Shown here one piece after another: positions 55,411-61,407 of a stretch of DNA of 64,000 bases; position 1 is the stretch's first letter, and every line of letters begins with the position of its first letter. Under the pieces are notes generated by a model. It ran no database searches, was not told the origin of the DNA, and saw only the letters and a list, made by a program, of their open reading frames with translations. The DNA lies in assembly GCF_000423845.1 (NCBI RefSeq), contig NZ_AUIT01000003.1:1-64000 (forward strand), read 5' to 3'. Source of the stretch: Thermodesulfobacterium hveragerdense DSM 12571. Lineage in GTDB: Bacteria > Desulfobacterota > Thermodesulfobacteria > Thermodesulfobacteriales > Thermodesulfobacteriaceae. A program made the position numbers and the translations under genes.

Positions 55411-57237
55411 ATGCAGGCACTTGTACTGGTGGTGATTTTATCGTGTGTTTTTGTGCTTGCCTATAGGTTTTACAGTGCTTTTATTGCTGCAAAAGTTCTT
55501 TCTTTAGATCCCAAAAGAACTACCCCTTCTACTATTTTAAACGATGGAAGAGACTATGTCCCTACCAATCGTTGGCTTGTTTTTGGGCACCATTTTGCAG
55601 CGATAGCTGGCGCAGGACCTTTAATCGGACCTGTGTTAGCTGCACAATTCGGTTATTTGCCTGGTTTTTTATGGATTTTGATCGGAAGTGTGGTAGCTGG
55701 TGCTGTTCATGATATGGTGGTGCTTTTTGCTTCAGTAAGGCATAACGGTAAGTCTCTTGCTGAAATTGCTAAAGCCCAGGTAGGCCCGGTATCTTACTGG
55801 CTTGTTCTTGTCGCTACTTTATTTTTGTTAATCATCGTTTTAGCTGGTGCTTCTATCGCAGTTGTGAATGCTTTGTATAATAGTCCCTGGGGAGCATTCA
55901 CAGTTGGAGTAACCATACCGATTGCTATTTTTATAGGTATCTATCTTAAATGGTTAAGGCCAGGCAAGGTGGTAGAAGCAAGTATTATTGGTGTGATATT
56001 GATTATCTTAGCGGTTGTGGTTGGGCCTGTGATTAAAGAATCAAGCTTAGCACCTTATTTTACTCTTGATAAAAAAACACTTTCTGTAATAGTTCCAGTA
56101 TATGGATTTTTTGCGGCTGTTTTACCTGTTTGGTTGCTTCTTGTTCCCAGAGACTATTTGAGCTCTTACATGAAGTTTGGAACGATGTTTTTACTTGCTA
56201 TTGGGGTGATACTTGTAAATCCTTTAATTAAAATGCCTGCAGTTACTCAGTTTGTGGCAGGTGGTGGTCCTGTTATACCAGGTAAGGTTTGGCCTTTTAT
56301 GTTTATCACCATAGCTTGCGGAGCCATTTCAGGTTTCCATTCCCTTGTTTCATCAGGAACTACACCTAAGATGGTGGAAAATGAAAGAGATATACGATTG
56401 ATTGGATATGGTGCCATGCTTGTAGAAGGATTTGTAGCTTTAATGGCTTTGATTGCTGCTACTGTACTTCCTACAGCAGACTATTTTGCCATAAACAGCG
56501 CTCCAGAAGCTTTTAAGAAACTCGGGATGCAGGTTCAAGACTTGCCTTATCTTTCTGCTTTAGTAGGAGAAGAGCTTGCAGGTCGTCCAGGTGGAGCCGT
56601 ATCTTTGGCAGTAGGAATGGCTGATATTTTTTCAAGGATAGGTGGGCTAAGACACTTGATGAGTTACTGGTATCATTTTGCAATTATGTTTGAGGCCTTA
56701 TTTATCCTTACTCTTATCGATGCAGGAACAAGAGTAGGTAGGTATCTAATGCAGGAATTAGGAGGAGTGTTTTATCCAAAGTTAAGAGATTATACTTGGT
56801 GGCCAGGGGTAATCTTTACAAGTGGGATATTTACATTTTGCTGGGGATATCTTCTTTATACAGGAACGATAGCTACCATATGGCCACTTTTTGGAGTAAA
56901 TAACCAGCTTCTTGCTGGAATGGCCTTTGCAATCACTACAACCTATCTTTTAAGGCTTGGTAAAGCAAAATATATATGGGTAACTCTTATTCCTATGACC
57001 TTTTTATTAATAACCACCATCGTTGCTGGGTATCAAAATATAGTTAACAATTATCTTCCTAAACAAAAATATTTACTTGCCGTGCTTTCTGCGGTAATGA
57101 TTTTATTGGTTATACTGATTGTAATGGACTCTATAAGGGTATGGCTAAAGATATTTAGAGGAGAGATCCCCCCTTATAAAGATAACGAAAATTCTCCTTC
57201 ATTAAAAGCAGAAACAATGAAACATCTTTCTGAGTAG
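55411..57237 (+). CDS. cstA: Carbon starvation protein CstA-family transporter
   Basis: CstA-type proteins import pyruvate or peptides. This membrane protein of 608 residues has about 16 hydrophobic segments. Family motifs include NDGRDYVPTNRWLVFGHHFA (20 residues) and AGAGPLIGPVLAAQFGYLPG near the N-terminus, VSSGTTPKMVENERDIRLIGYG (in part), and TLIDAGTRVGRYLMQE. Length lies between the short and long CstA forms. It has its own promoter and a strong terminator, so it is monocistronic. Substrate (pyruvate or other) is not resolved. Confidence 0.92.
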   Translation: MQALVLVVILSCVFVLAYRFYSAFIAAKVLSLDPKRTTPSTILNDGRDYVPTNRWLVFGHHFAAIAGAGPLIGPVLAAQFGYLPGFLWILIGSVVAGAVHDMVVLFASVRHNGKSLAEIAKAQVGPVSYWLVLVATLFLLIIVLAGASIAVVNALYNSPWGAFTVGVTIPIAIFIGIYLKWLRPGKVVEASIIGVILIILAVVVGPVIKESSLAPYFTLDKKTLSVIVPVYGFFAAVLPVWLLLVPRDYLSSYMKFGTMFLLAIGVILVNPLIKMPAVTQFVAGGGPVIPGKVWPFMFITIACGAISGFHSLVSSGTTPKMVENERDIRLIGYGAMLVEGFVALMALIAATVLPTADYFAINSAPEAFKKLGMQVQDLPYLSALVGEELAGRPGGAVSLAVGMADIFSRIGGLRHLMSYWYHFAIMFEALFILTLIDAGTRVGRYLMQELGGVFYPKLRDYTWWPGVIFTSGIFTFCWGYLLYTGTIATIWPLFGVNNQLLAGMAFAITTTYLLRLGKAKYIWVTLIPMTFLLITTIVAGYQNIVNNYLPKQKYLLAVLSAVMILLVILIVMDSIRVWLKIFRGEIPPYKDNENSPSLKAETMKHLSE

Positions 57238-57258
57238 TCAGAAAATGTCATAAAATTG

Positions 57259-57296
57259 GGATGGCTGTCTTAAAGAAAGACAGCCATCCTTTTTCT
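57259..57296 (+). terminator. Rho-independent terminator of cstA
   Basis: A 13-base perfect stem, GGATGGCTGTCTT (57259-57271) with AAGACAGCCATCC (57277-57289), encloses loop AAAGA and is followed by a T-run. It begins 21 bases after the cstA stop. Confidence 0.92.
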
Positions 57297-57404
57297 ATTT
57301 TAGACAACTTTTATTAAAAATTTGTTTGCAAAATATAGTAGCTACTCAATCAGATTTGCTATTAAAGATTATGTTGGCTGGTGAAAAAAGATGGCTATGA
57401 CCTG

Positions 57405-58150
57405 TTAAAAAATTTTTTTATTAATTTGAAAAAGAATAGCAGAAAGGCTTTTTGGTCTTGGTTGATAGATAATTTTTATTATTTCTCTTAGTTCTTTTCC
57501 TTTTTCTATAGAAAGTGAGGTAGATTTTGCCATATCAAGACTTGACTGGAGAAGATGCTTCTGTGTCCTGTTATTAAGAAGCTGATGATACAATCGAGAG
57601 CCGCGTAGGAGCTATTTGGGGACCGAAAAGTTCTCCTGCCATAATGATTGCAGAGATATGAGTATTGGTTGCCCCTGCTAAAAGACTGACCATTCCAATA
57701 AAGGCAAATAAGGATCTGTCAAGTCCAAAAAGGATTCCAAATGTGTTATCTGCGGTTGCTCTTACAAAAAACACAAAGGGGTAACAATTCCTCCGCTACC
57801 CCCGAAGTTTAGGGTAATAGAAGTAAAAAGAATTTTTAAAATAAAGGCTATAGGAGAGATGGGTTCACCTACGATGGCTTTTTTATCGTCTCAAGTCCAA
57901 GACCAGGTAGTTTTCAGAAAATATAAACGTAAGGACTATAAGAATTAAACCACCTATGATGGGTTTAGAAAACAGATTTAGTTTTGAATTTTTGCTAATC
58001 TTTTCAAAAAACGGAAGGTTTCTATAAAAAGAAGCGAGATAAGTCCAAAAAAAGATTCCGCTAAAGCAGACTTTTATAAACAATAAACTGGTAAACATAG
58101 GGATAACTTTTAATGGTTCATGGAAGTAGGTAATCCCAAGGAAGGAGAAA
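57405..58150 (-). pseudogene. ClC-family chloride channel/antiporter remnant (frameshifted, N-terminus missing)
   Basis: Reading leftwards in three frames gives successive ClC pieces: NLFSKPIIGGLILIVLT (near 57960), LTLNFGGSGGIVTP (near 57810, the GSGGIFAP chloride motif), RSLFAFIGMVSLLAGATNTH with IIMAGELFG (near 57660), IISFLITGHRSIFSSQVL (near 57570) and KSTSLSIEKGKELREI (near 57500). The pieces are in order but in different frames, so at least three or four frameshifts have occurred. The first about 150-200 residues of a ClC protein are absent beyond 58150. This is a dead gene. Confidence 0.7.
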
Positions 58151-58154
58151 AGGT

Positions 58155-58750
58155 ATGAATAAAAAAATTGTTTCTAAAATCGCTTTACTATCTATTTCTT
58201 CACTTGTTTTCACGTTTAGCCTTATTGGCGAAGTAAAAGGAGTGGAAATTTTTGTTGAATACCTATTTCAGGGCCGTGATAAAGGCTTTTCTTCAAACCG
58301 GGAACTGATTGAGGATGCTATAAAAAAATGCATTCCAAACGCATTCTTGATGAAGAGCTACTTCCGGCCTAGCATGTAGTTTGTCCTGCGTTTGAAGACG
58401 TAGCTGTTTTCGCGATGCTTGCAACGTGATTTTTGGTGCTTGCGAACAAATATAAGGTTTTTCAGACACCACTTGACACATCAAAATACCTTGTTCTTAA
58501 TGAAAGGTTTGTGAATGTAGGAGGAAGTGACCTTGGAGCTAAAAGCTGTAAGTTGGCTGGGGGGATGTGTTGGAACTGGTACCAAAAATCAGGTTCTCCT
58601 ATGGACTACCCCATCGTAGCTGCCGAAATGCCTTTCTCAATACAACTTTTGGAATCTACTATACGTTCTCTTGAAAGCATAGTGAAAAGGAGTTCTGTTC
58701 TCAAAAAGTTCACGAGATGTGGTATCCCTTCTCCAAAAAGTTGTAGCTGA
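58155..58750 (+). pseudogene. Unrecognised exported protein, broken by a frameshift and in-frame stops
   Basis: An ATG behind AAGGAAGGAG starts a clear signal peptide (KKIVSKIALLSISSLVFTFS, 20 residues), then a mature part with GFSSNRELIEDAIKKCIP. The first frame stops at 58378. A shifted frame beginning near 58345 continues LDEELLPA, TAG, HVVCPAFEDVAVFAMLAT, TGA, FLVLANKYKVFQTPLDTSKY, and then runs to the TGA at 58748-58750, including LAGGMCWNWYQKSGSPMDYP. The two Cys-bearing segments suggest a disulfide protein of the periplasm. I do not recognise the family. The original was probably 200 or more residues. Its position beside an integrase remnant suggests element cargo. Confidence 0.5.
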
Positions 58751-58825
58751 GTTTTCCAGTTAAAAAACTTCTGGCATAGAGAAAGAAGAAAAAAATGTCT
58801 CAGAAAAAAAGAAGAAACTTTTGGA

Positions 58826-59632
58826 ATGACAACACAGATGCTATCTCAGTTTCAAACTTTCATTGCGTACGGACTTTTAGGTCCAGTTTGGTCCTACAGT
58901 ATCCCTCCCTTTGTGTTTGCGTGTGCCGCTGACTTTTTACTCTATGTGTACGAAAAAGGAAACTGGGATTCTCTGATCCACGCCTTCCTTTTGTGGAAAG
59001 CTCTCTCTCCTGAAGCCGTGGAGCTTTCCAGGAATGATTCTATTTTGAATCGTGCCAAATTTTTCTACCTCTATCAGCGTGGAATCCTTGAGAATACTAA
59101 CCTAACTCCATACGAGAAAGAGAAAGAGAAAAAGATAATCTGGGCAAATGCACTTTTGAACACGGCTCTTGTAGAATTCCCTGAGTTTCAGCATATGAAA
59201 GAAAAAATCCAGGTAGAAATCCAGAAGGCACATGAACGATACCAGATGTTGAAAAAAAACACACAGGAGATACGGGAAAAAGACCTTGTGCTTGCTTCTT
59301 TGAAATTCAAAGCTGACGAAGAGATCGTTGATACAAGCACAAAAGAACTATCTCCTGAAAAATAGCAGAAACTACTGGAGGAATATCAAAGATGGCCTGT
59401 GGTTTATTTATACTCCAATGATCCCACTCCTTTTAGAAAAGAAAATCTAAATTTCATAACTTCGCAACTAGAAAACGCAACAAAGCAAAACGATCCACGG
59501 CTGGCTACTGTATTTGTTCCTTCCAGTCTAAAAGTGGGGGTAGGAATAGGAGCAGGAATGCCGGGAGCAATAACCTTGGGAGCAGCAGGTGTAACTGGAG
59601 CGTTGTATTGGAGGAAGAAAAAAAGGATGTGA
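58826..59632 (+). pseudogene. Unrecognised protein with in-frame TAG, probable membrane anchor at the C-terminus
   Basis: One frame of 269 codons is interrupted only by TAG at 59363-59365. Before the stop: GLLGPVWSYSIPPFVFACAA (hydrophobic), then a long helical, charged region (EFPEFQHMKEKIQVEIQKAH, 20 residues). After it: LLEEYQRWPVVYLYSNDPTP and a Gly-rich hydrophobic stretch (GVGIGAGMPGAITLGAAGVT, 20 residues) ending in WRKKKRM, like a C-terminal membrane anchor. The upstream frame to 58751 is the same, so it may once have joined the previous pseudogene. Codon use looks less AT-biased than the core genes. Family unknown. Confidence 0.5.
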
Positions 59633-59640
59633 ATTAAAAT

Positions 59641-59868
59641 GGAAAAAATTCGCAATTTTTACCTAAATTTTTTCAAGATGAAGCAGTGCAAAAAGTATGG
59701 ATAGAATTTTGGAAGAAGCATGAAAAGTTTATCTTGGTTCTCGGTGGGATGATTTTTTCACTGATTTTGCAACTATGGATGTCTGCCCTGTGAGTGACCA
59801 CGGCTATAATTTTTCTAGTCTGGCGGTTTTACCGCCATGTAGTGTCTTTGTCTGGAGAAGAGGTGTAA
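59641..59868 (+). pseudogene. Remnant of a small membrane protein with in-frame TGA
   Basis: One frame reads FQDEAVQKVWIEFWKKHEKF, ILVLGGMIFSLILQLWMSAL (helix), TGA at 59791-59793, then VTTAIIFLVWRFYRHVVSLS (second helix) and stops at 59866-59868. No ATG start is visible in this frame. It may be a third decayed gene of the element. Low certainty. Confidence 0.3.
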
Positions 59869-59869
59869 G

Positions 59870-60048
59870 ATGAAGGAAAACACTGAAATTCTCAGAATGA
59901 TTCTAGAAAGACTTGACTTAATTGCCCAAAAACTTTAGGCTTTTGATCTTTTACTGGATTTTGAAGAAAAAAAAAAAAACATGTTATTAAAACGATGGCG
60001 AGGCGAAAAGTGATGGAAATTTTAGAGAGAATAGAAAGAAAAACATAA
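59870..60048 (+). pseudogene. Small helical protein remnant next to the integrase
   Basis: MKENTEILRMILERLDLIAQ is followed by TAG at 59936-59938. The frame then runs to a 13-base A tract (59967-59979), after which a shifted frame gives MARRKVMEILERIERK and a stop at 60046-60048. If restored it is a charged helical protein of about 58 residues. Position just before int suggests an accessory gene, but I do not recognise it. Confidence 0.3.
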
Positions 60049-60055
60049 ATAGCTA

Positions 60056-61165
60056 ATGGCTATAAGACCTTACAAGAACAAAAAAGATTGTTGGATCGTT
60101 GATATTTCTCTAGGTCGGAAGCACCGTTTTAGGCAAATCTTCCACGGGACTTATGAGGAGGCCAAAGTCTTTGAACAAGAGCTAAAAAAGAACTTTCTGT
60201 CTATATATGAAAAGTTCCAAACAAGCCTAATATTTCAAATATAGCCTATGAATACCTTCAATATGTCGGGTTCACCAATCTCAAAAAACGTTCTCTGAAA
60301 AAAAGAGAATCATTCTGAAACATATAATTCCTTTTTTCGGCCACCTTACTTTCTAAAAGATTTCTCCTTCTTTGATAGAGGCTTATAAACTAAAAAGATT
60401 GAGAGAGTTAGAAAAAAAGGCGTGAAAGGAACCAGAGCGGTGAATGTGGAGCTAAACACCCTTTCTGCATTTGTAAGGTGGGCTATGGAGATGGGTTATG
60501 CCAACCAACCACTGAAAATCAAAAGATTAAAACATAAATACCGACTTCCCTAACCTTTAGACCTACAGACTACCGTGAAATTCATTGAAACTGCGAAGTC
60601 AGAACCCTTTTACTATGCTCTATTTCTCGTTATGTACCATATGGGGCTGAGGAAAAATGAAGTAGTCGCACTCAGATGGAATGATATTTTCTGGGAACAT
60701 AGTTTTATCCATGTCCGTGGAAAAGGAAATAAGTGGAAAAGGAAATAAGGAAAGGTTTGTTCCCATGAGCCAAGTTGTTTATTCAGCATTGCAAAATCTG
60801 AGAGACACCATAAAAACAAACACCCAGATTGTCTTCCCTTCACCAAAAAATCCAGAAAAGACCATCCGAGACTTACGGAAGGCAATCAAAAGGATAGTAA
60901 AGAAAGCTGGCATAACCCAACACATCCACCCTCACCAGCTCAGACATTCCTTTGCAACTCACCTGCTTGAACAGGGAGTAGACCTGAGAACAATTCAGGC
61001 TCTTTTAGGATACAGGACATCAAGACCACACAGATATACACGAAAGTAGCCTTTCCTCAATTAAGAAAAGCCATAGAAATTCTTGAGTCTAATGTCGTCA
61101 ACACGTTGTCACAACTGAACCACAGTCCCTGGAAGACCAGAAAAAATCGGGGCGAGAGGATTTGA
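60056..61165 (+). pseudogene. Tyrosine recombinase (integrase) pseudogene
   Basis: The start keeps an arm-type DNA-binding segment (RPYKNKKDCWIVDISLGRKH). Then come core-binding pieces (IILKHIIPFFGHLTF; NVELNTLSAFVRWAMEMGYA) and the catalytic domain: MGLRKNEVVALRW (first Arg), PHQLRHSFATHLLEQG (His-x-x-Arg) and IKTTQIYTKVAF (Tyr nucleophile). The pieces lie in different frames. Lesions seen: a stop near 60240, shifts near 60290-60420, TAA near 60552, a 16-base tandem duplication at 60718-60749, and a shift near 61015. The restored frame ends with TGA at 61163-61165, inside tRNA-Pro. The gene is dead and was probably the integrase of the element decayed to its left. Confidence 0.85.
60718..60749 (+). 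repeat. 16-base tandem duplication disrupting the integrase
   Basis: TGGAAAAGGAAATAAG occurs twice in direct succession (60718-60733 and 60734-60749). Sixteen is not a multiple of three, so the duplication shifts the integrase frame and brings in TAA. Removing one copy restores HVRGKGNKERFVPMS. Confidence 0.9.
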
Positions 61166-61220
61166 ACCTCCGACCCCCTGCTCCCAAGGCAGGTGCGCTC
61201 CCAAGCTGCGCTACGCCCCG
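61147..61220 (-). tRNA. tRNA-Pro (anticodon TGG), element attachment site
   Basis: On the leftward strand, CGGGGCG and CGCCCCG form the acceptor stem with discriminator A at 61147. The anticodon stem encloses TTGGGAG, giving TGG. The T-arm GGAGGTTCAAATCCTC is normal. No CCA is encoded after the discriminator (TTTTTT follows), unlike tRNA-Leu at 19658. The integrase frame enters its 3' end, the usual target of tyrosine integrases. Confidence 0.93.
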
Positions 61221-61407
61221 AAAGTTTTTGCTTTGATTAAAATATAACTTATTCGTTAAATTTTACAACACTTAAATAGCTAAGATTTTTTTGAAATTTT
61301 TAATCCTGTACATGCCTTCGGATAAGGTTTAAAAAAAATAATTTGTTGTTCAGGCTTAGTCGTTTGATTTTAAGGCTATATAGTAGCTTTTAAACTTTGT
61401 TAAAAAC

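Follow-up and report, generated by a model that had tools for sequence, protein, structure and literature searches.

What did the short, interrupted open reading frames near the right end of this DNA once encode, and how did they come to lie there? The question is raised by positions 58155-59868 of the window, our term for the whole 64,000-nucleotide stretch analyzed from Thermodesulfobacterium hveragerdense DSM 12571 (genome G000; 1.73 Mb). An earlier note had read these frames as several unrecognized exported and membrane proteins of a decayed element, perhaps a lost surface or secretion module. The ORFs that it named all exist at their positions in the ORF list, and the parts that it described are present: a signal-peptide-like N terminus, a Cys-bearing segment with LAGGMCWNWYQKSG, a helical ORF, a Gly-rich C terminus and a two-helix segment. 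Its division of the first two items into several proteins was wrong, given that they belong to one gene. As read from the sequence, 58155-59632 is a single degenerated gene and not a row of proteins. The features of the locus are as follows.

57368-58146, minus strand: remnant of a CLC-type chloride-channel gene, frameshifted and cut short where the element begins on the left; 94.6% identical to an intact 448-aa gene of T. thermophilum (G001:C21, L045 16389-17735) up to 58146, with no similarity thereafter
58155-58379, plus strand: piece a, start and signal-peptide-like N terminus of the broken gene; a 74-aa ORF with a hydrophobic segment, assigned by position only
58433-58750, plus strand: piece b, Cys-bearing part of the broken gene with LAGGMCWNWYQKSG, ending in TGA; matches residues 44-125 of the 380-aa homolog at 35% identity over 85 aa (E 2e-14)
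58826-59365, plus strand: piece c, helical part of the broken gene, ending in TAG; matches residues 173-321 of the homolog at 34% identity over 163 aligned columns (E 1.8e-22)
59399-59632, plus strand: piece d, C-terminal part with a Gly-rich hydrophobic anchor and the end RKKKRM, in the frame common to b and c
59638-59865, plus strand: two-helix scrap with two hydrophobic segments and one internal TGA
60056-61049, plus strand: broken tyrosine integrase from the ORF list (Pfam Phage_integrase, 4.7e-26 for 60681-61049)
61146-61221, minus strand: tRNA-Pro(tgg), found with ARAGORN, the presumed integration site, with the integrase adjacent

The case for one broken gene is that pieces b, c and d share one frame, broken by the TGA at 58748-58750 and the TAG at 59363-59365, and are collinear with a single intact protein. 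This relative is an uncharacterized 380-aa protein encoded by one open frame in T. thermophilum DSM 1276 (genome G001; NZ_ATXI01000003.1; L074 902-2044), and the window gene is about 32% identical to it over 277 aa (residues 43-319; E 7.7e-33). In a six-frame control against the 380-aa protein, the b-c-d frame gave E 8.6e-37 and the other five frames gave 0.39 or worse. Taken alone, piece a was not significantly similar to the homolog (E 0.14), and piece d did not match it. A purine-rich stretch resembling a ribosome-binding site precedes piece a, after which the frame is lost; piece a probably supplies the signal peptide of the broken gene. The encoded protein would have been exported and, probably, membrane anchored, and the gene is dead in this organism. 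The impression that codon use is less AT-biased here was borne out, with a GC3 of 0.393 for b, c and d together against a mean of 0.326 (standard deviation, 0.025) for 29 long ORFs of the window; piece c alone had 0.436 and piece d alone 0.325. Spurious frames in noncoding DNA would also account for the several stops and for the lack of any Pfam or PHROGs family match below E 0.03 for pieces a to d. This explanation has a negligible chance of being correct, given that it is refuted by the collinear similarity to an intact 380-aa frame, found in one frame only, and that b and c carry a codon-usage signal in that same frame.

The earlier note had proposed a search for intact copies in related genomes, and the T. 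thermophilum gene is such a copy; a lack of any intact homolog, which the note would have taken as a sign of spurious frames, was not the outcome. The family was found in 3 of 99 genomes with the 179-aa window piece as the query, in 3 of 198 with the intact protein and in 3 of 395, sampled evenly across the phylum, with a two-row profile; the three genome sets overlap, and each contains the window's own genome. The same three genomes, all of one genus, were positive each time: G000, its sister species G013 and T. thermophilum. The copy in G013 is the same broken version as that in the window. These counts suggest a family that is genus restricted in everything searched and known from two distinct sequences. 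The T. thermophilum protein resembles the window protein in its exported-type N terminus and its C-x(n)-CW segment; it differs in being intact, in lacking the Gly-rich C-terminal anchor and in having a MobF relaxase, rather than an integrase, as its neighbor. The GC3 of its gene is 0.263 versus 0.393 for the window gene, so base composition is not common to the two elements. An AlphaFold2 model from the two-row alignment had a mean pLDDT of 37 and was useless for fold comparison.

No curated family claimed the protein, in agreement with its earlier description as unrecognized. Beyond the Pfam and PHROGs scans of the window pieces, the intact homolog gave no convincing match in Pfam, NCBIfam, PHROGs or PADLOC, and in Pfam and NCBIfam it matched none of the families of known type IV secretion exported proteins (TraU, TraN, TraW and others). 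Piece c (58826-59362) weakly matched the PADLOC candidate PDC-M04B (21.2 bits; E 5.3e-5), which the intact homolog did not match at E 0.1; the helical segment probably scored here by chance. A PDB sequence search with the two-row profile returned chain m4D2 as its best hit at E 0.011, which misses the usual threshold and was rejected. Sequence scans of viral contigs and phages found no relative, and 72,556 plasmid records held no match to the exported protein. A collection of genome contigs gave 0 matches with the window piece and 1 with the two-row profile. When the family profile was run against 119 signal-peptide-like ORFs of the compared loci, including the F-type transfer loci of genomes G008 and G009, only the homolog itself matched. 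A full-text literature search combining Thermodesulfobacterium, conjugative and relaxase returned no paper, and other literature searches returned nothing that appeared to concern this element.

The idea of a decayed element held up, given the broken integrase next to tRNA-Pro, the chloride-channel gene truncated on the left side and an intact relative that lies inside an element integrated at tRNA-Arg. In the window, the remnant covers about 3 kb, starting near 58147 and reaching the tRNA at 61146, and contains the exported-protein gene, the two-helix scrap, small broken frames, the broken integrase and tRNA-Pro. The chloride-channel remnant matches the intact gene in three frames (Pfam Voltage_CLC, 2.3e-06 for 57574-57774). 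A probe of 18 bases from the tRNA-Pro 3' end, allowing up to 3 mismatches, found one site in the window and hence no second att copy; the left end is deleted. The integrase gene carries a 16-base tandem duplication at 60717-60748. Its product is 60% identical to an integrase of genome G005 located at tRNA-Asp and is not close to the integrase of the T. thermophilum element. The island to which the G005 enzyme belongs encodes exported proteins, among them a serpin (Pfam, 1.4e-128; L048 11281 to L072 8655). Neither G000 nor G013 had a match to the T. thermophilum relaxase or to the coupling-protein family PF10412. For the two-helix scrap, two coupling proteins ranked first and second of 2,245 ORFs (E 0.068 and 0.43), a weak lead that the scrap could be the membrane part from the N terminus of such a protein. 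We rejected its identification as a proven coupling-protein N terminus, given that the E of 2e-4 came from one hand-picked pair and that a third supporting match, L084, aligned to a different region. To the left of the same tRNA-Pro, T. thermophilum has other genes (L071 869-10212), including one for a 1158-aa protein matching PADLOC MkoC (6e-128), and the interval between the chloride-channel gene and tRNA-Pro therefore seems to be an insertion hot spot. At the other end of the window, positions 3-310 are one end of a multicopy insertion sequence (IS) that caps many contigs of G000 and T. thermophilum and has many copies in G013.

The remnant lies within a tract that appears to have moved recently. 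Across the 4.2 kb of 57007-61221, the one difference between G000 and G013 is a homopolymer indel at 59967, whereas outside this block each full 500-base bin has 20-51 substitutions, about 4-10%, and the partial first bin has 13 of 131. The lesions of the exported-protein gene and of the integrase are common to both genomes. Given this near identity between divergent flanks and the shared lesions, the block was most likely exchanged recently between the two species when it had already decayed. The tract would be a clear-cut example of DNA recently exchanged between two species of thermophiles.

In T. thermophilum, the 380-aa gene on contig 3 is convergent with the gene for a 1060-aa MobF relaxase (NCBIfam MobF, 1.1e-37; 130 bits against a cutoff of 100). 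On the far side of the relaxase are genes for a UvrD-like helicase, a primase-like protein with a zinc finger of the DnaG type and an HTH protein; an exported-type 147-aa protein is encoded upstream, and the contig then enters a multicopy IS. Contig 17 has tRNA-Arg and genes for a tyrosine recombinase of 399 aa, an exported-type protein of 355 aa that bears a hydrophobic anchor at its C terminus, small proteins, a coupling protein of the TrwB type (PF10412, 2.3e-95) and a protein of 178 aa. This contig breaks off in one end of an IS, and contig 3 breaks off in the opposite end of the same IS; at the outer edge of the part on contig 3, 44 bp of the tRNA-Arg 3' end recur exactly. We infer the join through this multicopy IS, and it is strongly indicated that the two parts form one integrated element of roughly 17 kb, not counting one copy of the IS, to which the intact homolog would belong together with the integrase, the coupling protein and the 44-bp tRNA-derived ends.

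L004 8896-19926 and L106 2337-8827: T. thermophilum element, split by the IS over two contigs

An ankyrin-repeat exported-type protein with a Kunitz/BPTI domain (Pfam, 4.7e-07) is encoded at L004 6218-7270, just outside the 44-bp repeat. Both the relaxase and the coupling protein resemble proteins of conjugative plasmids (MobF/TrwC relaxases and TrwB coupling proteins): the relaxase is about 30% identical to MobF relaxases of betaproteobacterial plasmids, and the coupling protein is 40% identical to one on a Desulfosarcina ovata plasmid, in contrast to the exported protein with its blank in the plasmid records. Our search for a mating pore in T. thermophilum covered TraC (TIGR02746) and PF03135 only. 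TraC had no match in G000, T. thermophilum or G013. PF03135 had none in G000 and T. thermophilum, the two genomes searched, which is a weak test because the F-type systems of G008 and G009 escape this model too. TraC-type genes occur in G008, G009 and G032, and possible helpers thus exist in the group; the F-type transfer loci with TraC-like genes (TIGR02746) of G008 and G009, two sister species, are at L046 and L047.

We consider the most probable reading, at roughly 55%, to be that 58155-59632 is the degenerated gene of an exported, probably membrane-anchored, genus-restricted family and a relic of a tRNA-integrating element like that of T. thermophilum, with mobilization genes. The window remnant would then descend from an element of that kind, whose left part would have been lost on joining to the chloride-channel gene. 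A simple shared origin is chiefly opposed by the window integrase, whose lineage differs from that of the T. thermophilum element and is closest to that of G005. Also counting against this reading are the absence of relaxase and coupling-protein matches in G000 and G013, the lack of a C-terminal hydrophobic anchor in the 380-aa homolog and the passage of the contig 17/contig 3 join through a multicopy IS.

The same integrase lineage invites two other explanations. The exported protein could be host cargo riding in islands, for example an envelope-protecting or protease-related protein, unconnected with DNA transfer; the G005 island with the related integrase consists largely of exported proteins, including the serpin, and T. 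thermophilum has exported genes, that for the ankyrin-Kunitz protein among them, just outside the 44-bp repeat. The intact copy, however, has the relaxase on one side and the coupling protein on the other and is within the 44-bp repeats, whereas this exported cargo lies outside them, and profile comparison found no similarity between the 380-aa family and those exported proteins. On balance we regard cargo as somewhat unlikely. The window element could instead be an island of the serpin-bearing kind, without mobilization genes, that gained the exported-protein gene from a MobF element by recombination, as its integrase lineage and the unmatched relaxase and coupling protein in G000 and G013 would suggest. 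Just 3 kb of the element is left, though, and missing mobilization genes therefore say little; we judge this explanation to be quite improbable.

If the remnant is instead a relic of a T. thermophilum-like element, as we prefer, the protein may have acted in the cell envelope during DNA transfer, where it would either have fitted the mating pore of a helper to the incoming element or have kept competitors out. We offer this role tentatively, at somewhat less than an even chance; it follows from an element that has a relaxase and a coupling protein and in which no pore ATPase was found, and the function is read from context alone, given that two distinct sequences are known and that the structural model is of very low confidence. 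Of the earlier idea of a lost surface or secretion module, the part that stands is a likely link to DNA transfer across the envelope, given the company of the MobF relaxase and the type IV coupling protein; a surface location and a secretion function stay putative. A wider formulation, which we think unlikely, is that of a MobF integrative mobilizable element (IME) of thermophilic Thermodesulfobacteria that brings its own coupling protein and also exported envelope proteins of a novel kind, by which the mating pore of a helper, such as the F-type systems of sister species, would be remodeled or blocked; the window would carry its fossil. Should the protein act in transfer, it would show how, in deep-branching thermophiles, a mobilizable element copes with the envelope of the cell. 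As it stands, this is a family with no described relative, whose intact member sits in an element with a relaxase and a coupling protein and with no mating pore found.

Passages of a review of IMEs (PMC5704250) describe elements that bring pore or exclusion subunits and thereby subvert a helper, and state that none of the canonical IMEs known has a gene for a relaxase of the MobF type. Compared with the elements in those passages, that of T. thermophilum is alike in its tRNA integration, recombinase, relaxase and coupling protein, with no pore ATPase found by TIGR02746 or PF03135, and it has a site-specific recombinase and direct att repeats (the 399-aa recombinase beside tRNA-Arg and the 44-bp repeat, with the ends on different contigs). 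It differs in that its relaxase is MobF. If it is an IME, the T. thermophilum element, whose mobility is predicted, would be an exception to the rule on MobF as those passages give it. The window holds a remnant only, in which neither a relaxase (by the T. thermophilum query in G000 and G013) nor paired att repeats were found.

A distant relationship may also exist within the T. thermophilum element itself. Two comparisons of the 380-aa family with the exported protein of 355 aa gave scores of 26.07 and 20.17, where the best of 100 shuffles reached 25.16 and the best of 200 reached 19.76, with an HHalign probability of 4-5%; the second comparison used a region chosen by eye, and the pair fell outside the top 15 of a broader comparison, which makes the relationship suggestive only. 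On a 3.2-kb contig of genome G022 (L109 78-2551), a related recombinase adjoins an exported-type 452-aa protein that shares the Cys-rich domain of the 355-aa protein.
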